NCBI RefSeq assembly: GCF_902459645.1 | Contig: NZ_CABPSK010000001.1 | Span: 558,001 to 622,000 of the forward strand | From: Pandoraea pneumonica | GTDB taxonomy: Bacteria > Pseudomonadota > Gammaproteobacteria > Burkholderiales > Burkholderiaceae | Reading direction: 5' to 3' | Length of the DNA: 64,000 nt | In this document: one piece after another, positions 24,595-36,171 of the stretch | How the letters are laid out: each line of letters opens with the position of its first letter | Position numbering within the stretch: the first letter of the stretch is position 1 | Notes under the pieces: model-generated | Databases searched by the model: none | The model's input: the letters and a program-made list of their open reading frames with translations, nothing else | Told to the model about the DNA's origin: nothing | Program-made: the position numbers and the translations under genes

Positions 24595-26136
24595 ATGCGG
24601 ATGCAATTGGATGTTTCGAACGACGTCTTGGGCGCGATGCCCTCGACCGGGCAAGCGCACGCTCATGCCCCCCATTCCCCAAACTCTCACGGGCTGAGCC
24701 CGAAGTTGCACAACACCGATCTGGCGCCGACGAAGTCGGAAGGGCGGCGCTGGGGGCGGTATAGCATCTTCGCGCTCTGGACCAACGATGTGCACAACAT
24801 CGCCAACTATTCCTTTGCCATCGGCCTGTTCGCATTGGGTTTGTCGGGCTGGCAGATGCTGGCGTCGCTAGCGATTGGCGCGGCGCTCGTGTATTTCTTC
24901 ATGAATCTCACGGGGTACATGGGCCACAAGACCGGTGTGCCGTTTCCCGTCATCAGCCGCATGAGCTTTGGGGTGTACGGCGCGCAATTGCCTGCAATCA
25001 TCCGTGCCGTCATTGCGATTGCGTGGTTCGGCATTCAGACCTATCTCGCCTCGGTCGTATTGCGTGTACTGCTCGTCGCTGTCTGGCCCGCGCTCGACGC
25101 CTTCGATCACAACGCCATCCTTGGCCTGTCGACGCTCGGCTGGGCAAGCTTCGTTGCCATCTGGCTCGTGCAGATCGCCATCCTGGCGTACGGCATGGAG
25201 ATGGTGCGCAAGTACGAAGCCTTCGCCGGGCCGATCATTCTGGTTACCGTCACGTCGCTAGCCGTATGGATGTACCACCGTGCGGGCGGCCACATCGCCA
25301 TGTCTATCGGTGAGCCGCTGACCGGCGTAAAGATGTGGACGAAGGTCTTTGCGGGCGGGGCGTTGTGGCTGGCGATCTACGGCACGCTGGTGCTCAATTT
25401 CTGCGATTTCACACGGGCGTCGCCCAGCCGGAAGGTCATTCGCACGGGCAATTTCTGGGGCCTGCCGGTCAACATTCTGATCTTCGCCGTCATCAGCTTC
25501 GTGCTGGCCGGTGCGCAATTCAGCCTGAACGGCCAGATCATCCATAGCCCGACGGAAATCATCGCGACCATTCCCGACAAGACATTTCTCGTCCTCGGCT
25601 GTCTGGCGTTCCTCGTCGTGACGGTGGCCGTGAACATCATGGCGAACTTCGTCGCGCCTGCGTTCGTACTGACGAGTCTCGCGCCGCATCGTCTGACTTT
25701 CCGCCGTGCGGGCCTCATCAGCGCCACGATTGCCGTGCTGATCCTGCCATGGAATCTCTATAACAGCCCCATCGTGATCGTGTACTTCCTGTCCGGGCTC
25801 GGCGCGTTGCTCGGGCCGCTTTACGGCATCATCACCGTCGACTATTGGCTGCTTCGCAAGACCTGTGTGCACGTGCCGCATCTCTACACGGAAGCGCGCG
25901 ACGGCACCTATCACTACGCCCGCGGCGTGAATCCGAAAGCGATCATCGCGCTCGTGCCGTCGGCGATCACCGCCGTGACCGTGGCGCTCGTGCCCGCGTT
26001 CAGCGCACTCACGCCGTTCTCGTGGCTGCTCGGTGCGGCGATTGCCGGTGGCGTGTATTACGCGATCTCTGACCGGCGCCAGCCGTTCGAAGACTGCTCG
26101 GGCGAACACTTCGCCGTCGACAGCGCCGCGCACTGA
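24595..26136 (+). CDS. NCS1 family nucleobase/hydantoin-type permease
   Basis: This 513-residue nucleobase:cation symporter-1 protein has about 12 membrane helices. NCS1 hallmarks include LWTNDVHNIANYSFAIGLFA at the first helix, GVPFPVISRMSFGVYGAQLP, and IITVDYWLLRK near the end of the core. The N-terminus has a His-rich cytosolic tail (AHAHAPHSPNSHG). Members import cytosine, allantoin, hydantoins or related rings with H+ or Na+. It is followed 22 bases later by an Asp/Glu/hydantoin racemase gene, in line with uptake of a hydantoin or ureide. Confidence 0.9.
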   Translation: MRMQLDVSNDVLGAMPSTGQAHAHAPHSPNSHGLSPKLHNTDLAPTKSEGRRWGRYSIFALWTNDVHNIANYSFAIGLFALGLSGWQMLASLAIGAALVYFFMNLTGYMGHKTGVPFPVISRMSFGVYGAQLPAIIRAVIAIAWFGIQTYLASVVLRVLLVAVWPALDAFDHNAILGLSTLGWASFVAIWLVQIAILAYGMEMVRKYEAFAGPIILVTVTSLAVWMYHRAGGHIAMSIGEPLTGVKMWTKVFAGGALWLAIYGTLVLNFCDFTRASPSRKVIRTGNFWGLPVNILIFAVISFVLAGAQFSLNGQIIHSPTEIIATIPDKTFLVLGCLAFLVVTVAVNIMANFVAPAFVLTSLAPHRLTFRRAGLISATIAVLILPWNLYNSPIVIVYFLSGLGALLGPLYGIITVDYWLLRKTCVHVPHLYTEARDGTYHYARGVNPKAIIALVPSAITAVTVALVPAFSALTPFSWLLGAAIAGGVYYAISDRRQPFEDCSGEHFAVDSAAH

Positions 26137-26157
26137 ATTACCCCCAAGGAGTGCTTC

Positions 26158-26892
26158 ATGAAAATACTGGTCGTGAACGTCAATACGACGACCGCCATCA
26201 CCGACGCCATTGCCCAGCATGCACGCACGGCAGCGTCGCCCGGGACAGAAATCGTCGGCCTGACGCCACACTTCGGCGCGGAATCGGTCGAGGGCAATTT
26301 CGAGAGCTATCTCGCCGCCATCGCCGTCATGCAGCGCGTGCTTAGCTACGATCAGCCCTACGACGCCGTCATTCAAGCGGGCTACGGCGAGCATGGCCGT
26401 GAAGGCTTGCAAGAGCTGCTGAACGTGCCCGTAGTCGATATCACCGAAGCCGCCGCGAGCGTCGCCATGCTGCTCGGGCACCGCTACTCGGTCGTGACCA
26501 CGCTCGACCGCACCGTGCCGCTGATCGAAGACCGTTTGAAACTCGCCGGACTCGACGCGCGGTGCGCTTCGGTGCGGGCAAGCGGCATGCCGGTGCTGGA
26601 ACTGGAGCGTGACCCGGTGCGTGCCGTGGAAGCCGTGGTGCAGCAGGCGGAACGGGCAGTGCGCGACGATCACGCCGAAGTCATCTGTCTGGGCTGTGGC
26701 GGCATGGCCGGGCTCGACGCCAAGATTCGAGAGCGCACGGGCGTGCCGGTCGTCGATGGCGTCTCAGCAGCCGTTGCACTGGCCGAATCGCTGGTTCGGC
26801 TGGGACTGCGTACGTCGAAGGTGCGCACGTACGCGACGCCGCGACGTAAGCAAATCGTCGGCTGGCCCGAAGCACTGCTGCGCTGCGCTTGA
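26158..26892 (+). CDS. Asp/Glu/hydantoin racemase family protein
   Basis: This 244-residue protein starts with the family signature KILVVNVNTTTAIT. The C-terminal catalytic cysteine lies in CLGCGGM (Cys180). The first-half position, usually a Cys (for example ACFGDPG), here reads QAGYGEHG (73-80) with Gly75 in its place, so a normal two-cysteine racemase mechanism is doubtful. It may use a single Cys, act as a decarboxylase-like relative, or have another acid/base. It probably shares an mRNA with the NCS1 permease. Confidence 0.85.
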   Translation: MKILVVNVNTTTAITDAIAQHARTAASPGTEIVGLTPHFGAESVEGNFESYLAAIAVMQRVLSYDQPYDAVIQAGYGEHGREGLQELLNVPVVDITEAAASVAMLLGHRYSVVTTLDRTVPLIEDRLKLAGLDARCASVRASGMPVLELERDPVRAVEAVVQQAERAVRDDHAEVICLGCGGMAGLDAKIRERTGVPVVDGVSAAVALAESLVRLGLRTSKVRTYATPRRKQIVGWPEALLRCA

Positions 26893-27076
26893 TCGCGAGA
26901 CCTAAAACGCGCCTGTTCCATCCTCCGTTGCGGCCCATAACGAGAAATCATGAAGCGCCGCAACAACCCGATATGCGGGAAAACTAGAGGCGCGCGCCGC
27001 CGCCGGTCTGGATATATTGAAGCCAGACCGGCGCCGCCATGAGGGCGGCGCAGTGAGAAGACGGAGTGGAGACGCA

Positions 27077-28147
27077 GTGGAAACGCATGGCGAACTGCAC
27101 CGGGCCATTCTGAACAACATTCCCGATCAGGCGTGGCTCAAAGACACCGAGTCGCGCTACATCCTCGTGAATGACGCCTTCATGGCCGCCTGCGGCCGAT
27201 CCGAGAAGGAAATCATCGGCAATACCCCCGACAAGGTCTGGTCTTCCGACTGGGGCCGCGTCTATCTGTCCACCGACCGTGCCGTGGTCGTGAGCGGCAA
27301 GCGTCGGCGCTACGAAGAAAGCCGCCCTGGTGCCGATGGCGCGCCGCGCTGGTTCGATACCGTCAAAATGCCCGTGCGCGACGCCAACGGCCGCATCGTC
27401 GGCACCGTGGGCATCTCACGCGACATCACCGATCGCAAGCGCTCCGAAATGGCGCTGCTCGACTCTCGCGCGCAACTGCGGCAGCTCTCCGCTTATCTGC
27501 AATCGGTGCGTGAAGCCGAACGCACCCGGCTATCGCGCGAACTTCACGATGAACTCGGACAATGGCTCGGTGGCTTACGCCTGGGTCTGAATTACCTCGA
27601 AGCCCAGCCGGGCACCGTGCCGCCCGATCAACCGGCGCACGTGCAGATGCTCAAGGAGCTGGTCGACGCGACAATCGACGCGGTACACCGCATCGCCGCC
27701 GATCTACGCCCGGCAGTGCTCGATGAGCTCGGCCTGCATGCTGCGCTGGAATGGCTCACCGAATCCTTCACCCAACGGCATGGTTTGCCGTGCGCGTTGC
27801 ATATGGCCGAAGACGTCACCGTCGGTCTCGACAGCGAGTGCAGCACGGCCATCTTCCGTATCGTGCAGGAGTCGCTCACCAATGCGAGCCGCCACGGACA
27901 GGCGACGCAGGTGACGGTCTCGCTGGACCTGCGCGACGGGTACTGCCACGTCACTATTGCCGACGATGGCCGTGGCATGGACACGTCGCGCGCAGGGCAC
28001 GGCCAGCGCTTGGGCCTGATGGGCATGCGCGAGCGCGCGTTGATGCTCGGCGGCGCGTTCGAAATCGAGAGTCAGCCGGGGCAGGGCACGCGCGTGATGG
28101 CGCGCATCCCGCAGCATCCGGCGGGCGCAGACGGAGCGCCGCAATAA
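27077..28147 (+). CDS. PAS-domain sensor histidine kinase (NarX/DegS-type)
   Basis: This 356-residue soluble kinase has an N-terminal PAS domain (ILNNIPDQAWLKDTESRYIL to GTVGISRDITDRK). A HisKA_3 dimerisation domain follows with the phospho-acceptor in RELHDELGQ (His157). The HATPase_c domain has RIVQESLTNASRHG, DDGRGMD and GLMGMRERA. No membrane segment is seen, so it senses a cytosolic signal through PAS. I start at GTG 27077 behind GGAG; an earlier TTG is possible. Its stop overlaps the start of the response regulator by one base (TAATG). Confidence 0.9.
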   Translation: METHGELHRAILNNIPDQAWLKDTESRYILVNDAFMAACGRSEKEIIGNTPDKVWSSDWGRVYLSTDRAVVVSGKRRRYEESRPGADGAPRWFDTVKMPVRDANGRIVGTVGISRDITDRKRSEMALLDSRAQLRQLSAYLQSVREAERTRLSRELHDELGQWLGGLRLGLNYLEAQPGTVPPDQPAHVQMLKELVDATIDAVHRIAADLRPAVLDELGLHAALEWLTESFTQRHGLPCALHMAEDVTVGLDSECSTAIFRIVQESLTNASRHGQATQVTVSLDLRDGYCHVTIADDGRGMDTSRAGHGQRLGLMGMRERALMLGGAFEIESQPGQGTRVMARIPQHPAGADGAPQ

Positions 28148-28791
28148 TGCGCATCATGATTGCCGACGATCACGCGATCATTCGCGACGGCCTGAAGAAG
28201 ATCATCTCGACCTCGCCCGACATGTGCGTGGTTTCCGAGGCCGTCGATGGTACCGACGTGCTCAATCGTTTGCGGCTGACTACGGTCGACGTGCTGCTGC
28301 TCGATATGTCTATGCCCGGCAAGAGCGGCATTGCGCTAATCCAGCAAATCAAGGCCACTTACCCGGCATTGCCGATTCTCGTGCTCAGCATGTACCGCGA
28401 ATCGCAATACGCTGTGCAGGCCATTCGCGCAGGCGCGGCGGGGTATCTGACGAAGAACGCCGAGTCGGAGCAGTTGGTCGGGGCGATCCGGCGAGTGGCG
28501 CGCGGCGGCACGGTGGTGTCGCCATTGGTCGCCGACAAACTCGTGCGTCAGTTGCAGCAGCCCGCCGAAGTGCTGCCGCACACGCGGCTCACGGCGCGAG
28601 AGTTCCAGATCTTCCAGATGCTCGTCGAGGGCAGCGGCATCAACGACATCGCGCGTTGCCTGTCGCTCTCGAGCAAGACGGTCAGCACTCACAAGGCCAA
28701 TATCCTGACCAAGATGGACATCGCATCCACCGCCGGTCTCGTGCACTACGCCATCGAGCACGGGCTGATCGTCGCCGGTACCGACGCTTAA
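28147..28791 (+). CDS. NarL/FixJ family response regulator
   Basis: This 214-residue regulator has a receiver domain with acidic pocket ADDH (6-9), phospho-acceptor Asp53 (LLDMSMPG) and Lys103. A LuxR-type DNA-binding domain is at about 145-205 (LTAREFQIFQMLVEGSGIND and LSSKTVSTHKANILTKM). It is translationally coupled to the upstream PAS kinase. Neighbouring nitrogen-compound genes are plausible targets, including the amidohydrolase 340 bases downstream, but no binding site was identified. Confidence 0.93.
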   Translation: MRIMIADDHAIIRDGLKKIISTSPDMCVVSEAVDGTDVLNRLRLTTVDVLLLDMSMPGKSGIALIQQIKATYPALPILVLSMYRESQYAVQAIRAGAAGYLTKNAESEQLVGAIRRVARGGTVVSPLVADKLVRQLQQPAEVLPHTRLTAREFQIFQMLVEGSGINDIARCLSLSSKTVSTHKANILTKMDIASTAGLVHYAIEHGLIVAGTDA

Positions 28792-29130
28792 GCGCGCCGC
28801 GCTAGCGCGCTTGTCACCGATTCTCCAAACGCTGAAGCCGCACGCCGAGCGCCCTCGGGGGCGGCTTCACGTCTGCACGTCCGTGTTTTCCCGCACGCAT
28901 TCCCTTGTGTTGGCGATTGCTGCACCGCGTCTAGGGAAATTCTTAGACGAAAACCAGCAAATCCCGATGCCCCGGTCGCAGGCACTCCCATAACCTGAAT
29001 TTCAGCCCCACTCAGTCCGACTTACGGGGCAATGCCGAATGCCACCCCGGCCGCCATCGTAGCCAAACGCAATACAACGCACTTCAACACAACAACATCG
29101 ACATCATTCGAGACCCTAGGAGACGGCACC
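28791..29130. other. 340-base non-coding stretch before the amidohydrolase
   Basis: It starts with an AGCGCGC-N7-GCGCGCT hairpin at 28791-28811, right at the response-regulator stop codon and probably a terminator without a U-tract. The remainder has no supported gene. Frames open here lack ribosome sites and family similarity. The promoter of the amidohydrolase operon should lie here. Confidence 0.5.
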
Positions 29131-30402
29131 ATGCATGTGGACTTGCTGATTAACAACGTGTGCGTGCGCGATGAAGCGCCGCTCGTGGATATCGCCATCA
29201 AAGGCGGGCGCATCGTGGCGCTGGAGCCGGGCATCGACGCTTCGGCCGACGAGATCATCGACGCGCAAGGGCGCGCCGCGATTCCCGGTCTCATCGAAGC
29301 GCACTTGCATCTGGACAAAGCGCTGCTGCATCGCCGGTTGCCTGCGCGCTTCGGCACCTTAGACGAGGCCATTCGCGTCACCGGCATTCTCAAGAGCAAG
29401 CAGGAGCGCGAAGACGTGCTCGACCGCTCGCGTCAGGTGCTCGACATGGCGGTGAAGCACGGCACAGTGGCCGTGCGTGCGCACCCGGACGTCGATCTGA
29501 TTCAGGGCCTGATCGGCGTGGAGACGCTGCTCGCGCTCAAAGACGAATACAACAGCCTGCTCGACTTGCAGATCGTCGCGTTTCCGCAAGAAGGCATTCT
29601 CAAGTCCAAGGGCACGTACGAGTTGATGATCGACGCGCTGCGCATGGGCGCGGACGTGGTCGGCGGGTGCCCGTACAACGAGTTGAACTGGGACGACACC
29701 AAGCGCCATATCGACATCGTGTTCGAGCTGGCGCAGCGTTTCGACGCGCCGGTCGACATGCATGCCGACTTTGCGGACGACACGGCCGACCAGCGTTTTG
29801 CCGCGATCTCATACATCGCGCAGAAGACGATTGAAACCGGCTACCAAGGCCGCGTTTCGCTGGGGCACGTGACGAGCCTCGGCGCGCTCGATGCCGACAC
29901 ACTCGCCCCCGTCATCGAACAGATCCGGCTGGCCGGTATCAGCATCGTGACGCTGCCCGCGACCGATCTCTATCTCGGCGGGCGCAAGGATCAGCAGAAC
30001 CAGCGCCGGGGCCTCACGCCGGTCAAAGCGCTGCACAGCGCGGGCGTGAACGTGGCCTATTCGTCGAACAACGTGCGCAACGCATTCACGCCGTTCGGCA
30101 AGGCCGACATGCTGCTCATCGGCAACCTGCTCGCGCACGTTGCACAGTTCGGGGTGCCGGAGCATCAGCAGGCCATTCTCGACATGGGCACGCATAACGC
30201 CGCGCGTGCCATCGGGCTCTCGCACGACTACGGCATTGCCGTGGGTAAGCAGGCCGACCTCGTCATTCTCGACACCTTCAAAGTTGCCGATGCGCTACTC
30301 GACATCCCGCCCCGTGCGTGGGTGATCAAGCGCGGGCGCATTACGGTGGTGACGCAGCATCACTGCGAAATCCATCGGCATTCATGTTGTTGTGCGCAAT
30401 GA
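29131..30402 (+). CDS. Cytosine deaminase-like amidohydrolase (paralogue 1, Asp-to-Asn at metal site)
   Basis: This 423-residue amidohydrolase of the CodA/AtzC-like group has the metal motif EAHLHLDK (His58, His60), DMHADFADD and LGHVTSLG. Where CodA-type enzymes have a catalytic metal-binding Asp (GHDD or GNDN), this protein reads SSNNV with Asn313, so its chemistry may differ from standard deamination. ATG 29131 has TAGGAG eight bases upstream; earlier in-frame codons are unsupported. The C-terminus ends in an unusual CEIHRHSCCCAQ tail. It is followed by DUF1097 and gamma-glutamyltransferase-like genes in the same direction. Confidence 0.85.
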   Translation: MHVDLLINNVCVRDEAPLVDIAIKGGRIVALEPGIDASADEIIDAQGRAAIPGLIEAHLHLDKALLHRRLPARFGTLDEAIRVTGILKSKQEREDVLDRSRQVLDMAVKHGTVAVRAHPDVDLIQGLIGVETLLALKDEYNSLLDLQIVAFPQEGILKSKGTYELMIDALRMGADVVGGCPYNELNWDDTKRHIDIVFELAQRFDAPVDMHADFADDTADQRFAAISYIAQKTIETGYQGRVSLGHVTSLGALDADTLAPVIEQIRLAGISIVTLPATDLYLGGRKDQQNQRRGLTPVKALHSAGVNVAYSSNNVRNAFTPFGKADMLLIGNLLAHVAQFGVPEHQQAILDMGTHNAARAIGLSHDYGIAVGKQADLVILDTFKVADALLDIPPRAWVIKRGRITVVTQHHCEIHRHSCCCAQ

Positions 30403-30430
30403 AGTTCCAATAAAACTCAAGGAGACAATC

Positions 30431-30967
30431 ATGAAGAAGCTGCCTGCGGAAGTTGTTGCCTCGTTACTTGCTGTCACGACCATCCCGATTGCCATGCTGC
30501 CGCTGCACTTGCCGCCGTGGGCGATCTTCATCAGTTGGGCCGCCACGTTTGCCATGGGCGGGCCGACCTTCGTCAACCTCAAACGCATCTGGGCGACGCT
30601 GCCCGTCGGCTCGTTCTTCGCGTTCCTGATCGTGCTGGGGTTCAAACAAGCCTCGACGCAATTCACCGGTAACACGCTCGTGCTCGCCGAGATGGTCATT
30701 CTCTTTACCGGCAACGGCACGATGATGGCGCTCGCTCGCGTGTTCCCCGGCCTGAACTTTATTCCGGGCATGTTCTTCGGCTTTGCCACGTATTTCGCCA
30801 CGCTCTTTGGCGGCTTCGGCCCCGTGCCGCAAGACCCGATGGCGGCGCTGGGAGCGGCTGTGGCGATGAACGCTCTTGGCCCGGTCTACGCATGGGTGAA
30901 GGAGCGCTATTCGGCCCCGGAAGTCACGCATCACCGCAACTGGAAGGGCTGGAAGGCCGAAGTCTAA
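30431..30967 (+). CDS. DUF1097 family membrane protein
   Basis: This 178-residue protein has about five hydrophobic segments (VVASLLAVTTIPIAMLPL, AIFISWAATFAMGGPTF, FFAFLIVLGF, MVILFTGNGTMMALA, MFFGFATYFATLFGG). It matches the DUF1097/YcdZ type of small inner-membrane protein, for which I know no reaction; a channel or transporter role is commonly supposed. AAGGAG precedes ATG 30431. It lies 28 bases after the amidohydrolase gene and about 96 before the next, consistent with a catabolic operon. Confidence 0.83.
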   Translation: MKKLPAEVVASLLAVTTIPIAMLPLHLPPWAIFISWAATFAMGGPTFVNLKRIWATLPVGSFFAFLIVLGFKQASTQFTGNTLVLAEMVILFTGNGTMMALARVFPGLNFIPGMFFGFATYFATLFGGFGPVPQDPMAALGAAVAMNALGPVYAWVKERYSAPEVTHHRNWKGWKAEV

Positions 30968-31063
30968 GCCGATTTTGCAGGGCATGACATCGCATAGAGC
31001 AGCGGGGCGCTTGCCAGTGTCGGGCGCGCCCCGCCGCGAGAAAACACCACGCAGGGAGGCGGT

Positions 31064-32836
31064 ATGACGTTCGCAGGAAAAACGGCCACAGGGCCGTCGA
31101 CGACACAACTTGGCACGACAAGAGACGGCGGTACCACGCGCCGCGATTTTCTGATGAGTACGGCGGCGCTCGCGAGCAGTGCGGTGCTGCCTGTGGCAAC
31201 GGCAGAAGCTGCGGGCGTCGCCGACGCGGTCGTGGCCGTGCCTGCCTCCCGTGGCGACCCTCGCTTGGCGCAGTCGACACGCGGCATGGTGACCAGTCCG
31301 CACGAGTTGGCCAGCGAGGCCGGGCTGGAAGTGTTGCGCGCCGGTGGCAACGCTATCGAAGCCGCTATCGCTATCGGCGCCGTGCTTGCCGTGACGTATC
31401 CGCATTTCACCGGGCTGGGCGGCGATGCCTTCATGGTCATCAGCGACCGTGACGGCAACGTGCGCACGCTCTCCGGTATCGGGCAGTCGGCGGCCAAGTT
31501 GCCGGCGTATCAAGGAGAGATTCCGGTGCGCGGCCCGGGCGCTGCGTTGACGACCGCGGCCACCGTCGCTATCTGGGAGAAAGCGTACGAGTTCGGCCGC
31601 ACGCAATGGGGCGGCAAGCAGGCGTGGTCGTCGTTGTTCTCTCGCGCCACGGAATACGCCGCCAATGGCTTTCCCGTCACGCCGTCGCAGCATTTCTGGC
31701 AAACGCTTCGCGCAAAGGAATTGGCGAGTTGGGAAGGGTTCGCCTCGGTGTACATGCCCAACGGCCGCATTCCGCAAGCAGACGAAACGTTCGTGCAGCC
31801 CGCATTGGCACGAAGCCTCGATAGCATCGCCACGCATGGCGGGCGCGAGTTCTACGAAGGCGATTTGGCGGCGCGTGTCGCGGCGGGGTTGAAGCGAGTC
31901 GGCTCGCCGCTGACGCTAGACGATATCGCTCGCACGCAAGCCCGGGAGGAAGTGCCGCTGCGCGTGGCGTATCGCGATGGCGAGTTGCTTGGCCTGCGTC
32001 CGCCCACACAGGGCGTGACGACGCTGGAGATCATGGGAATTCTCAATCGCTTCGATCTGGCGTCGATGCCGGAGGGGAGCGCGGATTACTATCACGTGCT
32101 GGTCGAAGCGGTGAAGCTCGCCTTCATCGATCGCAACCGCTACGTGGCCGACCCGGACTTTGTCGACGTGCCGCTCGATCGCATGCTCTCGAGTGCGTCG
32201 CTCGATGCGCACGCGCGCAGCATCCGCATGGATCGTGCGATGCCGTGGCCGCATGTCTACAAAACGGGCGATACCGTCTATATCGGCGCGACGGACGCCG
32301 CAGGCAATTGCGTGAGCATGCTGCAAACGGTCTATTTCGACTGGGGCAGCGGTGTGGTGCTGGGCGACACCGGTGTGTTGTGGCACAACCGTGGCGCGTC
32401 GTTCAGTCTCGATGCGCGCAGCCCGAACGTGTTGCAGCCCGGCAAGCGACCGTTCCATACGCTCAATCCGGGCATCTATCTCAAGCAAGGGCGCCCGAGC
32501 CTGCTGTACGGCACGCAAGGTGCCGATGGCCAGCCGCAGACGCTCGCCGCAGTGCTAACCCGGTTGATCGACTACGGCATGGACCCGCTGACGGCACTCG
32601 GCCGTCCGCGCTTTCTGCTCGGCAAGACGTTCTCGGATAGCCGCGATAGCCTCAAGCTCGAACAGGACGCTGGGGCCGCTGTGTTCACGGAATTGGCCGT
32701 TCGCGGGCACGAGATGAGCGCATTGCCTGCACAAAGCCAGCTTGCCGGGCACCCCGGGGCAATTCGCATCAGCGCGCAAGGGCAGATGAGCGGCGCGCAC
32801 GACCCACGCAGCGACGGGCGGGCATTGGGTGTGTGA
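31064..32836 (+). CDS. Tat-exported gamma-glutamyltransferase-like (oxamate amidohydrolase-like) Ntn hydrolase
   Basis: This 590-residue precursor has a twin-arginine signal (TTRRDFLM, Arg26-Arg27; hydrophobic core to about residue 47). The Ntn-hydrolase precursor has a large-subunit start (GMVTSPHELASEAGLEVLRAGG and TGLGGDAF). The autoprocessing/nucleophile region is GDTVY with Thr404, followed by DAAGNCVSMLQ and GSGVVLGDTGVLWHNRG. The GDTVY form, rather than TTH, is typical of the YwrD/HpxW branch, whose HpxW member hydrolyses oxamate. Export to the periplasm is unlike HpxW. Its neighbours suggest hydrolysis of an amide in a ureide-type pathway. Confidence 0.82.
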   Translation: MTFAGKTATGPSTTQLGTTRDGGTTRRDFLMSTAALASSAVLPVATAEAAGVADAVVAVPASRGDPRLAQSTRGMVTSPHELASEAGLEVLRAGGNAIEAAIAIGAVLAVTYPHFTGLGGDAFMVISDRDGNVRTLSGIGQSAAKLPAYQGEIPVRGPGAALTTAATVAIWEKAYEFGRTQWGGKQAWSSLFSRATEYAANGFPVTPSQHFWQTLRAKELASWEGFASVYMPNGRIPQADETFVQPALARSLDSIATHGGREFYEGDLAARVAAGLKRVGSPLTLDDIARTQAREEVPLRVAYRDGELLGLRPPTQGVTTLEIMGILNRFDLASMPEGSADYYHVLVEAVKLAFIDRNRYVADPDFVDVPLDRMLSSASLDAHARSIRMDRAMPWPHVYKTGDTVYIGATDAAGNCVSMLQTVYFDWGSGVVLGDTGVLWHNRGASFSLDARSPNVLQPGKRPFHTLNPGIYLKQGRPSLLYGTQGADGQPQTLAAVLTRLIDYGMDPLTALGRPRFLLGKTFSDSRDSLKLEQDAGAAVFTELAVRGHEMSALPAQSQLAGHPGAIRISAQGQMSGAHDPRSDGRALGV

Positions 32837-32865
32837 GCGTGTGACATCCGCAAACGTATGACGAT

Positions 32866-32902
32866 GTGCCCGACAACGCCGGAAACCCCAGTTGTCGGGC
32901 AC
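32866..32902 (+). terminator. 12-bp perfect stem after the Ntn hydrolase gene
   Basis: GTGCCCGACAAC and GTTGTCGGGCAC flank a 13-base loop 30 bases after the stop codon; the stem extends by ACGA/TCGT with one bulge. No U-tract follows, so termination efficiency is uncertain. Confidence 0.6.
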
Positions 32903-32948
32903 TCGTCGTGCGTGATACAAGATCCACTGCCTATCGATAAATCAAATA

Positions 32949-33845
32949 GTGACTATGGCTGGCAGTGCGAAATCGAATCGACCGCTTTTCGATCTGGATC
33001 TGTTGCGCTCGATCATCATGGTGGCCGACTGCGGCAGTTTCACCACGGCGGCCGCGCGCCTTCACTCGACGCAATCCACCGTGAGCCAGAAGGTGCGCCG
33101 TCTTGAAGACATGGTCGGCCACAAGCTGCTCGACCGGGGCAATCGCGAAGTGCACGCCACCGACGCCGGTGAAATGCTGCTCGGCTATGCCCGTCAGATC
33201 CTGGCGCTCAACGATCAGATGTTCGAGGCGCTTTCCGGCGCGGTGGTGGCGGTGACGGTGCGTCTGGGCGTGCCGGAAGATTTCGCCACGGGCGCGACGA
33301 CGCAAGTGCTTGCGGGCTTCAATCGGCAGTATCCGCAAGTCAAACTCGAAGTCACGAGCGGGCTGAGCCGCGACTTGCTCGGCAGCTACGATCACGGCGA
33401 ACTGGACCTCGTGCTGGTCAAACAGCGGCGCAACAGCCGGGAATCGGTGGCGTGCCGACCGGAGAAGCTCGCATGGATCGATAGCGCGACGCACCCGTCG
33501 TTCGCCCTCGACCCCGTGCCGCTCGTCACGTTTCCGACGCGCGGCCTTTACCGCGACGACATGATCAATGCGCTCGAAGCGATGGGGCGCAACTGGCGCA
33601 TCAGCTTCACCAGTTCGAGCCTGAGCGGCATTCAGGGGGCGGTGGCCGACGGCATGGGCATCAGTCTGGTGCCGCCGCGTGCGGTGCTGCCTGGCCATGT
33701 CGTGCTGGGGCGTGCCCAGGGGTTGCCCGTGGTCGACACGTTCGAGTTGGCGATCTTTCACCGGCCCACGGCCGACCCAATGGTCAAAGCCTTAGCGAAG
33801 GTGCTGGTCGGTATGTTGGAGTCGAAGACGCGTTCAGCGAAGTGA
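32949..33845 (+). CDS. LysR family transcriptional regulator
   Basis: This 298-residue regulator has a LysR helix-turn-helix (SIIMVADCGSFTTAAARLHS, TQSTVSQKVRRLEDMVG) and a compact effector domain with VRLGVPEDFATG and GELDLVLVKQ. The start is GTG 32949, or ATG 32955 two codons later; neither has a clear ribosome site. It sits between the rightward Ntn hydrolase operon and the leftward AllE/deaminase genes, and may regulate either. A strong bidirectional terminator follows. Confidence 0.88.
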   Translation: MTMAGSAKSNRPLFDLDLLRSIIMVADCGSFTTAAARLHSTQSTVSQKVRRLEDMVGHKLLDRGNREVHATDAGEMLLGYARQILALNDQMFEALSGAVVAVTVRLGVPEDFATGATTQVLAGFNRQYPQVKLEVTSGLSRDLLGSYDHGELDLVLVKQRRNSRESVACRPEKLAWIDSATHPSFALDPVPLVTFPTRGLYRDDMINALEAMGRNWRISFTSSSLSGIQGAVADGMGISLVPPRAVLPGHVVLGRAQGLPVVDTFELAIFHRPTADPMVKALAKVLVGMLESKTRSAK

Positions 33846-33867
33846 CGCCTCGGTTTTCCAAGGCGCA

Positions 33868-33903
33868 AAAAAGCCGGTGCGGCGTATTGCCGACCGGCTT
33901 TTT
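33868..33903. terminator. Bidirectional rho-independent terminator
   Basis: AAAAAGCCGGT pairs with ACCGGCTTTTT, with an inner CGGC/GCCG extension around a short loop. U-runs on both strands let it end the lysR transcript and the convergent AllE-type transcript. Confidence 0.92.
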
Positions 33904-33944
33904 GTATCGAAGCTCACGCACAGACGCGTGAGACTTCGCCTGGC

Positions 33945-34784
33945 TTAGCGCGGTTGTGCGCCCAGCGTCAGGTTCATGTGACGATTGACGTCCTTGTACA
34001 GCAGGTAACGGAAGGGGCCGGGGCCGCCGGCGTAGCAAGCTTGCGGGCAGAACGCGCGCAGCCACATGAAGTCACCGGCTTCGACTTCCACCCAGTCTTG
34101 ATTCAGACGGTAGACGGCCTTGCCTTCGAGCACATACAGGCCGTGCTCCATGACGTGCGTTTCGGCGAACGGAATCACGCCGCCCGGCTGGAACGTCACG
34201 ATGTTCACGTGCATGTCGTGGCGCATGTCCTGAATGTCGACGAAGCGCGTCGTGACCCAACGGCCATCGGTGCCCGGCATCGGAATCGGTTCCACGTCCT
34301 GCTCGTTCTTCACGAACGGCTCCGGATACGGCAGACCTTCCACGGCTTGGTAGTGCTTGCGAACCCAGTGGAAGCGCGCCGTGCTCTGGCTCTGGTTGCG
34401 CACTTGCCAGTCGGTAGCGGGCGGGATGAACGCGTAGCCGCCCGGCGTCAGCTTGTTGGCCTTGCCTTGAATCGTGACGGTGATTTCGCCTTCGACGACG
34501 AACAGCACGCCTTCGGCCTTGTCGTCTTGCTCGGGCTTGTCGCTACCACCACCGGCACCGACTTCCATGATGTATTGCGCGAACGTCTCGGCAAAACCCG
34601 AGAGCGGACGGGCCAGCACCCACAGACGCGTGTTGTCCCAGAACGGCAGGTGGCTCGTCACGATGTCGCGCATCACACCCTTCGGGATGACGGCGTACGC
34701 TTCGGTGAACATCGCGCGGTCGGTGAGCAGTTCCGTTTGCGCCGGATGCCCGCCGTGCGGTGCGTAATACGTTGTCTTCGACAT
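33945..34784 (-). CDS. allE: (S)-ureidoglycine aminohydrolase-like bicupin (AllE type)
   Basis: This 279-residue bicupin closely follows the layout of E. coli AllE (YlbA), which converts (S)-ureidoglycine to ureidoglycolate and ammonia. The C-terminal cupin has DMHVNIVTFQPGG, then ETHVMEHGLYVLEG with the expected manganese ligands Glu208, His210 and His214, and Gln248 in CPQACY. The N-terminal cupin carries GVLFVVEGEITV and PGGYAFIPP. The conserved KDVNRHM end is present. It lies 160 bases after a cytosine-deaminase-like gene on the same strand. No allantoinase or allantoate hydrolase gene is nearby, so the physiological substrate may differ. Confidence 0.87.
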   Translation of the reverse strand: MSKTTYYAPHGGHPAQTELLTDRAMFTEAYAVIPKGVMRDIVTSHLPFWDNTRLWVLARPLSGFAETFAQYIMEVGAGGGSDKPEQDDKAEGVLFVVEGEITVTIQGKANKLTPGGYAFIPPATDWQVRNQSQSTARFHWVRKHYQAVEGLPYPEPFVKNEQDVEPIPMPGTDGRWVTTRFVDIQDMRHDMHVNIVTFQPGGVIPFAETHVMEHGLYVLEGKAVYRLNQDWVEVEAGDFMWLRAFCPQACYAGGPGPFRYLLYKDVNRHMNLTLGAQPR

Positions 34785-34944
34785 TCCATTGACTCCTGAT
34801 GACGCTAGTTTTTCTCCCCATCGTTCGTCTTTGATTGCCGTGGTTACACGCTGCGCTTGGGGGCGCGCACAGCGGGCTTCACCTCGGCGCGACGAACGCT
34901 AGCGACGCCGTGACCTCGCGCAGGCCCGGCATCGCGCATGACAG

Positions 34945-36171
34945 TCAGGTCGGGGTGGACCCTGCTGTGTCCTTCAATAGGGCGGGGTCGAGCGCAAGCT
35001 GCGCCGGGCCGCCCCAATAACGTCCGTGACGAATCACCGCGCGGGCCGCCGGCGCGGCAGCTACGGCAGCGGCGGCATTCGGTGCATCGAACACGACGAA
35101 ACTCGCTTCGTTGCCTTCGCGCAGACCGTAATCGGCTTTGCCGATGACAGCAGCGGCCGCATGCGTCGCCATGTCGAGCGCGACTTGCAGATGTTCGTCG
35201 GTATAGAAGCCTGAGCGATAGCCGATGAGCATCGCGCGTTGCAGCATGTCGCCGTTGCCGTACGGCCACCAACTGTCTTGAATATTGTCGTTGCCGGTGA
35301 ACACGCGCACGCCCGCTTCGCGCAGACGCAGAATCGGTGGGAACGCGCGGTCACCAGGGGCGTTGGTCATGATCGACACACCGGCATCGGCCAGCGCACG
35401 CGCGATCACGTCAAGTTCCGCGAGGCCGATATCGCCCAGTCCATACGCATGGCTTACCGACACGCGGCCCTGCAAACCAGCGGCCTGCGTGCGCGCCGCG
35501 ATGCGGTGCAATTGCGCGAGACCCGTCTCGCCGGGTTCGTGCAGATGAATATCGATCTTCGTGCCGTGCTTCTCGGCAATGCCGAACACCACACTGAGTT
35601 GTCCTTGTGCGTCGCCGTCGAGCGTCGTCGGATCGATGCCACCCACGACCTGCACGCCTTCGCGAACGGCGGCTTCGAGGACTTCGGCAGTTCCCGGGCA
35701 AGTCATCACGCCTGCCTGCGGGAAGGCCACGAGCTCGATGTCGAGCAGGTCGCGCCACTGGTCGCGCATGGCCATCACGGCATGCAGGTGCGTCAGGTTC
35801 GTGCTTGCGTCGACGTCGACATGGCAGCGCATGGCAACCGTGCCGAAGGCGACGCATTGACGCATGAGGGCGTCGGCGCGCTGTGTCATCGGTGCGGCAG
35901 CAGCGATCTCTTCCTTTTCTGCGGCCAGCCGATCACGCAAGGTGGCTGCCGGGCGATGCGGGCGCCAGCGGTCGCCGAGAAAGCTCTTGTCGAGGTGAAT
36001 ATGACCATCGACAAAACCGGGCAGGACCAGCTTGCCTTGCAGATCGATGACTTGTGCGCCGTGGGTTTCCGGTGCCTGAGGGCCGACGTAGGTGAAGCGT
36101 CCGTCGCGCGTGGCGAGGTGGAGGGGTTGGCCGTCGGCACCAACGGCGCCAACGAAAACACGGTGAGTCAT
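34945..36171 (-). CDS. Cytosine deaminase-like amidohydrolase (paralogue 2)
   Basis: This 408-residue amidohydrolase has an intact CodA-type metal site: DGHIHLDK (His57, His59), DIHLHEPGETG (His209), VSHAYGLGD (His241) and GNDNIQDSWWPYG (Asp295). It should deaminate or hydrolyse a cyclic amidine or amide. ATG 36171 opens with MTHRVFVGAV and there is no signal peptide. It is transcribed with the downstream AllE-type gene, and is paralogous to the amidohydrolase at 29131, which has Asn at the equivalent of Asp295. Confidence 0.88.
   Translation of the reverse strand: MTHRVFVGAVGADGQPLHLATRDGRFTYVGPQAPETHGAQVIDLQGKLVLPGFVDGHIHLDKSFLGDRWRPHRPAATLRDRLAAEKEEIAAAAPMTQRADALMRQCVAFGTVAMRCHVDVDASTNLTHLHAVMAMRDQWRDLLDIELVAFPQAGVMTCPGTAEVLEAAVREGVQVVGGIDPTTLDGDAQGQLSVVFGIAEKHGTKIDIHLHEPGETGLAQLHRIAARTQAAGLQGRVSVSHAYGLGDIGLAELDVIARALADAGVSIMTNAPGDRAFPPILRLREAGVRVFTGNDNIQDSWWPYGNGDMLQRAMLIGYRSGFYTDEHLQVALDMATHAAAAVIGKADYGLREGNEASFVVFDAPNAAAAVAAAPAARAVIRHGRYWGGPAQLALDPALLKDTAGSTPT

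Follow-up and report, generated by a model that had tools for sequence, protein, structure and literature searches.

What does a block of ten genes that joins ureide enzymes to two amidohydrolases do in the soil bacterium Pandoraea pneumonica? The block occupies positions 24,595 to 36,171 of a 64,000-nucleotide stretch (hereafter, the window; C1:558001-622000, where C1 is a contig of the 5.85 Mb genome), and a preliminary description had proposed that it encodes one undescribed pathway for a heterocyclic nitrogen source. We found that the ten genes do not make up a single pathway. The block is made of three modules: an NCS1 permease with a racemase; an amidohydrolase (AH2) with AllE; and a five-gene set consisting of a histidine kinase (HK), a response regulator (RR), a second amidohydrolase (AH1), a DUF1097 protein and a hydrolase of the gamma-glutamyltranspeptidase fold (GGT). 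The five-gene set is a conserved cluster that is co-conserved far beyond Pandoraea, and the association of AH1 with enzymes that act on oxalurate and oxamate, which recurs across several bacterial phyla, has apparently not been described so far. The ten genes are:

24595-26136, plus strand: NCS1 permease (PF02133, 265 bits)
26158-26892, plus strand: Asp/Glu-type racemase, an allantoin racemase (match to 5lfd, E 4e-127)
27017-28147, plus strand: HK, a PAS and HisKA_3 sensor histidine kinase (PF08448, PF07730, PF02518)
28147-28791, plus strand: RR, a NarL-type response regulator (PF00072, PF00196)
29032-30402, plus strand: AH1, an amidohydrolase with the cytosine-deaminase fold (coordinates of the open reading frame, or ORF; the true start is probably 29131)
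30431-30967, plus strand: DUF1097 small membrane protein (PF06496, 84 bits; ATG read at the start)
31064-32836, plus strand: GGT, an HpxW-like Ntn hydrolase of the gamma-glutamyltranspeptidase fold (similar to 5hft)
32949-33845, plus strand: LysR-family regulator (PF00126, PF03466)
33945-34784, minus strand: AllE-type (S)-ureidoglycine aminohydrolase (NF008376, NF040771)
34945-36171, minus strand: AH2, a PRK05985-type amidohydrolase (NF004636, 576 bits, cut-off 408; 6nbo, E 7e-82)

The domain and family scan covered 20 window proteins, including all ten of the block. The six gene types named earlier (NCS1 permease, racemase, two amidohydrolases, Ntn hydrolase and AllE) are real and in place, but the kinase, the NarL-type regulator, the DUF1097 protein and the LysR regulator had been overlooked. 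Along the plus strand, the genes from NCS1 through racemase, kinase, regulator, AH1, DUF1097 and GGT to LysR are separated by 21, 124, -1, 339, 28, 96 and 112 bp (taking AH1 from 29131 and DUF1097 from 30431); the kinase and regulator genes thus overlap by one base, and DUF1097 begins 28 bp past AH1. On the minus strand AH2 is followed after 160 bp by AllE, the second gene of this unit. Scans for promoter-like sites (0, against 3.3 in shuffles) and terminator-like sites (11, against 11.9) were uninformative.

The modularity is evident from a comparison of 32 Pandoraea genomes. AllE was present in 23 of them, AH1 in 20 and both in 19 (Fisher p 0.0004; the genomes are related). We fetched 20 stretches from 19 of these genomes, and 15 of the stretches hold AH1. 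The NCS1-racemase pair is a variable insertion, adjoining the cluster in four of the 20 stretches (4/15 of those with AH1). Four of the 23 AllE-bearing genomes lack AH1; among them AH2 is kept in one (83%), represented by only its first and last parts in another and missing from two. The LysR gene remains next to AllE in all four fetched stretches with AllE and without AH1. One genome (G226) has AH1 and no AllE, along with a different GGT (37-38%) and the order HK-RR-GGT-AH1-DUF1097. NCS1-racemase, AH2-AllE-LysR and HK-RR-AH1-DUF1097-GGT therefore vary independently among Pandoraea, which rules out a single novel ten-gene pathway and makes the block a composite. In Pandoraea G219 a deletion remnant of AH2, reduced to its first 19 and last 54 residues (L101:9597-9800), adjoins an intact AllE.

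Beyond the genus, an AH1-alignment scan of named genomes returned 104 relatives, and we retained the 80 best loci; all counts of AH1 loci refer to these. Ten are from Pandoraea, and the rest are from Paraburkholderia, Burkholderia, Cupriavidus, Noviherbaspirillum, Methylobacterium, Ancylobacter, Bradyrhizobium, several Actinobacteria, Fusibacter and metagenome-assembled genomes (MAGs), two of the latter labelled Acidobacteria and Chloroflexi. Neighbours were counted by tblastn at thresholds that we set; apparent AH2 matches at 29-35% were AH1 self-matches and AH2 was counted only from 42% upwards, and our quick ORF picker chooses ORFs on the wrong strand in places that lack a known relative. 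DUF1097 was found near AH1 in 64 loci, GGT in 43, HK with RR in 38, an FmdA-like gene in 22, a DUF4440-amidase in 15 and AllF, AllG and carbamate kinase together in 11. AllE was found in 13 loci, AH2 in 17 and NCS1 with racemase in 8. Counting as oxalurate/oxamate-type markers the HpxW-like GGT, the oxamic transcarbamylase (OXTCase) genes (AllF, AllG and carbamate kinase), the FmdA-like gene and the DUF4440-amidase, 67 of the 80 loci carried at least one, as did 58 of the 70 outside Pandoraea. None of 17 control loci, cytosine-deaminase-like and keeping the catalytic Asp discussed below, had such a marker or DUF1097 (17 of 19 such loci, leaving out G052 and G061; Fisher p 1e-10 against the 58/70, with loci that are not independent). 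When 398 Pseudomonadota genomes were drawn evenly (AH1 at E <= 1e-95, GGT at E <= 1e-75, the first few candidates per genome scored), three contained AH1 and 88 gave GGT matches, and in all three AH1 genomes a GGT match lay close to AH1, at 665, 34 and 735 bp. The preliminary description had hinted at a side route from ureidoglycine through oxalurate to oxamate. Because the neighbours of the AH1 set in other phyla are oxalurate and oxamate genes, the hint of an oxalurate-oxamate route holds, though for AH1 and GGT and not for AllE.

We then asked what distinguishes AH1 from its characterized relatives. It has the cytosine-deaminase fold with the HxH/His/His framework, and falls below the curated cytosine deaminase cut-offs (PRK07572, 297/438 bits; PRK09230, 240/483). 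We aligned 83 rows of the AH1 clade (81 distinct) with 20 other rows, numbering residues from the ORF start at 29032. The catalytic Asp of beta-8, presumably D313 of CodA, a catalytic and metal-binding residue, is Asn (N346) in 83/83 clade rows and Asp in 20/20 others; this Asp is generally taken to be near-invariant in the amidohydrolase superfamily. The Asn of beta-7 is in turn replaced by Asp (D312) in all 83 rows. At the position after the metal-binding His of beta-5, where 19/20 others have a Glu that we take to be CodA E217, the clade has Phe in 75 rows and Gly, Leu or Val in eight. An Arg (R349) is found in 75/83 clade rows against 2/20 others. AH1 thus differs from E. coli CodA and from AtzC in its beta-8 Asn, its beta-7 Asp and, mostly, its Phe for the Glu, and with these key residues replaced a plain cytosine or creatinine deaminase is disfavoured; calling AH1 deaminase-like, as was done earlier, appears doubtful. 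AH2 retains the catalytic Asp (GNDNIQDSW motif).

The partner hydrolase, GGT, scores highest by summed chains against 5hft (219.5 + 168.5 bits, versus 251.2 for 2nlz), whereas by single chain 2nlz stands above 5hft (251 versus 219.5). We take 5hft to be the Klebsiella oxamate amidohydrolase HpxW (the entry itself says gamma-glutamyltranspeptidase), and HpxW-like GGTs are presumably the known oxamate amidohydrolase family. Identity to 5hft is 134/324 (41.4%) in the large chain and 91/185 (49.2%) in the small chain; the small subunit alone scores 171.8 bits to 5hft_B, 97.5 to 2nlz and 60.6 to E. coli GGT (2e0w). Thr404, aligned with the first residue of 5hft_B, is the predicted nucleophile. Inspected by eye in the 2e0w alignment, the protein has no Arg or Asp at the gamma-glutamyl-binding places, which we take to be R114 and D433 of E. 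coli GGT. Its score against TIGR00066 is 356.9 bits (cut-off 357.85), and a relative in L154 reaches 374.6. For the alternative GGT type (L039), too, 5hft comes out nearest once the chains are summed (198 + 123.1, versus 276.1 for 2nlz). Unlike in the Klebsiella hpx branch, the window GGT, whose oxamate activity is predicted, is paired with AH1-DUF1097 and a two-component system and has a twin-arginine (Tat)-like leader.

Not all GGT copies carry that leader (TTRRDFLMS at the N terminus of the window protein, by eye). A simple motif search found it in 23 of 24 Pandoraea loci with this GGT type (L104-L127, other than L106, which holds no GGT), the one without it being L107, at a contig start, and also in seven Cupriavidus loci, L142 and L154. 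The same search found none in eight Paraburkholderia/Burkholderia loci, four Methylobacterium/Methylorubrum loci, L145, L152 and every second-type GGT. Export as an essential feature of GGT is therefore unsupported.

Some relatives of AH1 are embedded among OXTCase genes. The order in Fusibacter (L183) is PucR, AllH, a CoA-ligase-type FdrA (AllF), AllG, carbamate kinase, a membrane protein, AH1 and a DctP-type binding protein; these neighbours were named by Pfam, and the amino-acid-kinase-family protein was called carbamate kinase by similarity. Enterococcus faecalis NZ_CP143580.1 (L223) carries PucR, FdrA, DUF2877, MFS, carbamate kinase, a symporter, AllD (TIGR03175, 696 bits, cut-off 496), a membrane protein and an AH1 relative that is 49.6% identical and has the residue signature of the clade. 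The Streptomyces and Pseudonocardia relatives likewise adjoin AllF/AllG and carbamate kinase. AllF, AllG, AllH and carbamate kinase were not found among the 20 window proteins scanned; they lie beside AH1 only in relatives. According to the part of PMC11326118 available to us, AllFGH is the OXTCase of E. coli, and its genes were identified only in 2024. The E. coli allFGHK operon (with allD) thus shares AllF/AllG and carbamate kinase with these four AH1 neighbourhoods, AllH with Fusibacter (DUF2877 in E. faecalis) and AllD with E. faecalis. It differs in that the window has no OXTCase gene near AH1 and in that the same part of PMC11326118 mentions no such amidohydrolase in the E. coli operon. 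Two older papers, known from their titles in reference lists, bear on this route: one from 1965 on the induction of OXTCase by parabanic acid in a Streptococcus (listed in PMC3364942, PMC6022934, PMC11326118 and PMC3282769), and one from 1986 that deals with S. faecalis, its oxalurate pathway and its third carbamate kinase (listed in PMC6022934, PMC11326118 and PMC3282769).

In both Firmicutes the gene before AH1 encodes a membrane protein of 451-454 amino acids (L223:10624-11979 and L183:8621-9985; 62.9% identical), with no Pfam match for the L183 copy and no NCBIfam match for the L223 copy. DUF1097 was not found in L183, and this protein is a candidate transporter of the same substrate. NZ_CP143580.1 is a 747 kb E. 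faecalis 'plasmid' that carries genes of ordinary metabolism; it may be part of the chromosome in an assembly that is not yet complete.

For DUF1097 itself, fold comparison gave ALMT channels as top matches, yet no higher than unrelated helical proteins. In Anaerostipes hadrus DUF1097/ycdZ adjoins the pyrimidine genes preTA and hydA (an excerpt of PMC11036815), which fits a role with ureides. At the oxalate end, oxalyl-CoA decarboxylase (Oxc) was above cut-off in 28 of the 32 Pandoraea genomes, including this one, and the four without it all lack AH1 (p 0.014, not corrected for kinship). A formyl-CoA transferase gene (627 bits, cut-off 504) precedes AH1-DUF1097 in one MAG (L164), where the thiamine pyrophosphate enzyme is far below the Oxc cut-off (239/739 bits). 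Pandoraea has been linked to oxalate degradation (in the accessible text of PMC6851202).

From these data we infer the following division of labour. NCS1 and the racemase would import and racemise allantoin, feeding the standard allantoin pathway encoded elsewhere; AH2-AllE would be a second ureide unit; and HK-RR-AH1-DUF1097-GGT would form a catabolic cluster that is controlled by a sensor and acts around oxalurate. There, the kinase-regulator pair may sense the substrate, and AH1 would convert a small cyclic ureide (parabanate being the best candidate and 5-hydroxyhydantoin the alternative) to oxalurate or ureidoglycolate. The HpxW-like GGT would release oxalate from oxamate, or from oxalurate itself, for the genome's Oxc, and DUF1097 probably carries substrate or product across the membrane. 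We place AH1 upstream of oxalurate because this fits the operon types with OXTCase, with FmdA-like and amidase genes and with HpxW-like genes; in the Gram-negative type, GGT must therefore accept oxalurate, or an unlinked enzyme is needed. As a whole, this reading of three modules, with AH1 upstream of oxalurate and GGT leading to oxalate, is one that we favour tentatively, its chances being just short of even. Several observations weigh against it. No gene linked to the Gram-negative cluster accounts for the conversion of oxalurate to oxamate, unless GGT takes oxalurate, and AllD in E. faecalis suggests that AH1 yields ureidoglycolate rather than oxalurate, or acts elsewhere. No marker gene was found in 12 of the 70 non-Pandoraea AH1 loci (some on short contigs), and GGT is nearby in only three of eight more distant Asn-type relatives. 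The FmdA-like protein that we tested scores only 68/500 bits to the curated formamidase, and the tested DUF4440-amidase reaches the cut-off of none of the 25 families listed. Finally, parabanate also hydrolyses non-enzymatically, slowly at neutral pH (as stated in an excerpt of PMC5703782).

Other assignments of AH1 share part of this evidence. AH1 could itself be the oxamate amidohydrolase (oxamate to oxalate and NH3) acting after OXTCase, with GGT having another substrate: it is the last enzyme gene in the OXTCase-type runs of Fusibacter and E. faecalis, which would then span oxalurate to oxalate, and R349 could bind a carboxylate. Such an activity would be redundant, however, where an HpxW-like GGT co-occurs with AH1, as it also does alongside AllF, AllG and carbamate kinase in L149, L151 and L169, and we regard this role as unlikely. 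AH1 might instead act directly on oxalurate, with either oxamate, NH3 and CO2 or oxalate and urea as products, so that OXTCase is bypassed. The Gram-negative cluster, which has AH1 and GGT but in most loci no linked OXTCase genes, would then be complete. In 11 of the 80 loci, however, AllF, AllG and carbamate kinase are all present and would make this activity redundant; we find it very improbable. The ten genes might also be one ordinary allantoin locus with AH1 and AH2 as accessory hydrolases of allantoin or its isomers. An allantoin racemase, NCS1 and AllE all lie in the block, AH2-AllE follows the AH1 cluster in four of eight Paraburkholderia/Burkholderia loci (L129, L132, L141, L170), and NCS1 and a 36-38% racemase are near AH1 in four Gordonia loci. 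Yet NCS1-racemase is lacking in 11 of the 15 fetched stretches of Pandoraea that contain AH1, AllE without AH1 and AH1 without AllE both occur, and among the 70 loci outside Pandoraea AllE is found in four, all Paraburkholderia, and NCS1-racemase in four, all Gordonia. A single allantoin locus thus seems a decidedly poor prospect.

The allantoin-side genes themselves require nothing new. The racemase shares 197/240 residues (82.1%) with the solved allantoin racemase 5lfd, presumably from Pseudomonas, with no notable difference found between the two. Racemase and permease thus suggest allantoin uptake rather than the additional ring substrate proposed earlier. The permease is probably of the allantoin/hydantoin type: its nearest solved chains are those of the hydantoin permease Mhp1 (E 3.5e-27), and it misses the NCBIfam allantoin permease cut-off (283/620 bits). 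AllE passes NF008376 (557 bits, cut-off 338), NF040771 (511, cut-off 350) and a further curated equivalog (316, cut-off 200), and its nearest solved chain is 1sq4 (E 2e-161).

Allantoinase, allantoicase and ureidoglycolate lyase were not found among the 20 window proteins scanned, but the genome has a standard urate/allantoin cluster of PuuE, UraD, allantoicase and ureidoglycolate lyase at about C1:1.21 Mb, on the same contig and about 0.6 Mb from the window. PuuE scores 540.7 bits (cut-off 424.6), UraD 181 (cut-off 24) and the genome's two ureidoglycolate lyases 204 and 205 (cut-off 23). AllE needs no new pathway, since these standard genes exist. The preliminary description had named, as grounds against its proposal, standard allantoin genes elsewhere in the genome together with a lack of co-conservation of the other genes; the former are present, and the AH1 set is co-conserved far beyond Pandoraea. 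Allantoate amidohydrolase (AllC) was rejected as the supplier of the AllE substrate, being above cut-off in none of the 32 Pandoraea genomes, with weaker relatives in 31. The second allantoicase-ureidoglycolate lyase pair lies on contig C4 (L055:9408-11065; the C1 copy is L053:11503-13164). The two copies are identical in 338/339 and 186/186 protein positions and 96.7% identical in DNA over 1662 bp, which suggests duplication or transfer with the proteins held constant.

A broader proposal can be made. AH1 could found a new amidohydrolase branch whose catalytic Asp has shifted to strand 7 and left strand 8, a geometry that we infer from the paired exchange. It would open an undescribed route from parabanate (or another oxidised-purine ring) through oxalurate to oxalate in several phyla, and would supply the entry enzyme that is missing from the oxalurate pathway known in streptococci since the 1960s. 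We consider this full proposal possible, though more doubtful than probable; the consistent Asp/Asn exchange would also alter what counts as near-invariant in the superfamily. In the open-licence PMC literature we found no description of this amidohydrolase with oxalurate genes, no paper bringing together parabanic acid, oxaluric acid and a bacterial hydrolase, and none on an Asp-to-Asn exchange in an amidohydrolase. We judge the AH1 set to be a variation on known ureide catabolism centred on a promising enzyme family. Gaps in oxalurate and oxamate metabolism are long-standing, and bacterial routes to oxalurate other than via allantoin are not described in the excerpts of the literature that we consulted. 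The conserved AH1, which accompanies oxalurate/oxamate genes in Proteobacteria, Actinobacteria and Firmicutes alike, is a candidate for this first reaction that can be tested directly. When singlet oxygen attacks uric acid, parabanate is among the products (PMC5703782), and the route may therefore recycle damaged purines.

Related gene sets were seen elsewhere. Two Rhizobium plasmids (L224:2904-9233 and L225) carry in a row an FAD oxidoreductase, a questin-oxidase-family protein, an AH2-type amidohydrolase, an 8-oxoguanine deaminase (625 bits, cut-off 532) and an Asn-type amidohydrolase, in what looks like a purine ring-opening operon. A second HpxW-like GGT (62%) is encoded in the P. pneumonica genome at C6:98801-100429 (L228), next to polysaccharide-deacetylase-family (PuuE-like), GntR-like, flavin-reductase-domain and ABC transporter genes; by eye, the order is the same in L229 and L230, and this set is a possible second uncharacterised ureide route. 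GGT relatives adjoin an Asn-type amidohydrolase in L232 and L234, and in L233:6560-12588 a GGT-like gene stands with two isochorismatase-family genes, an allophanate-hydrolase-type amidase and an AH2-type (47%) gene, a row resembling a triuret/biuret-type operon. In the window, AH2 is followed by a tandem pair of PixA inclusion-body-type genes (PF12306; 36401-36898 and 36968-37537, both on the minus strand), the first 32-81% and the second 79-96% identical to those of other Pandoraea.

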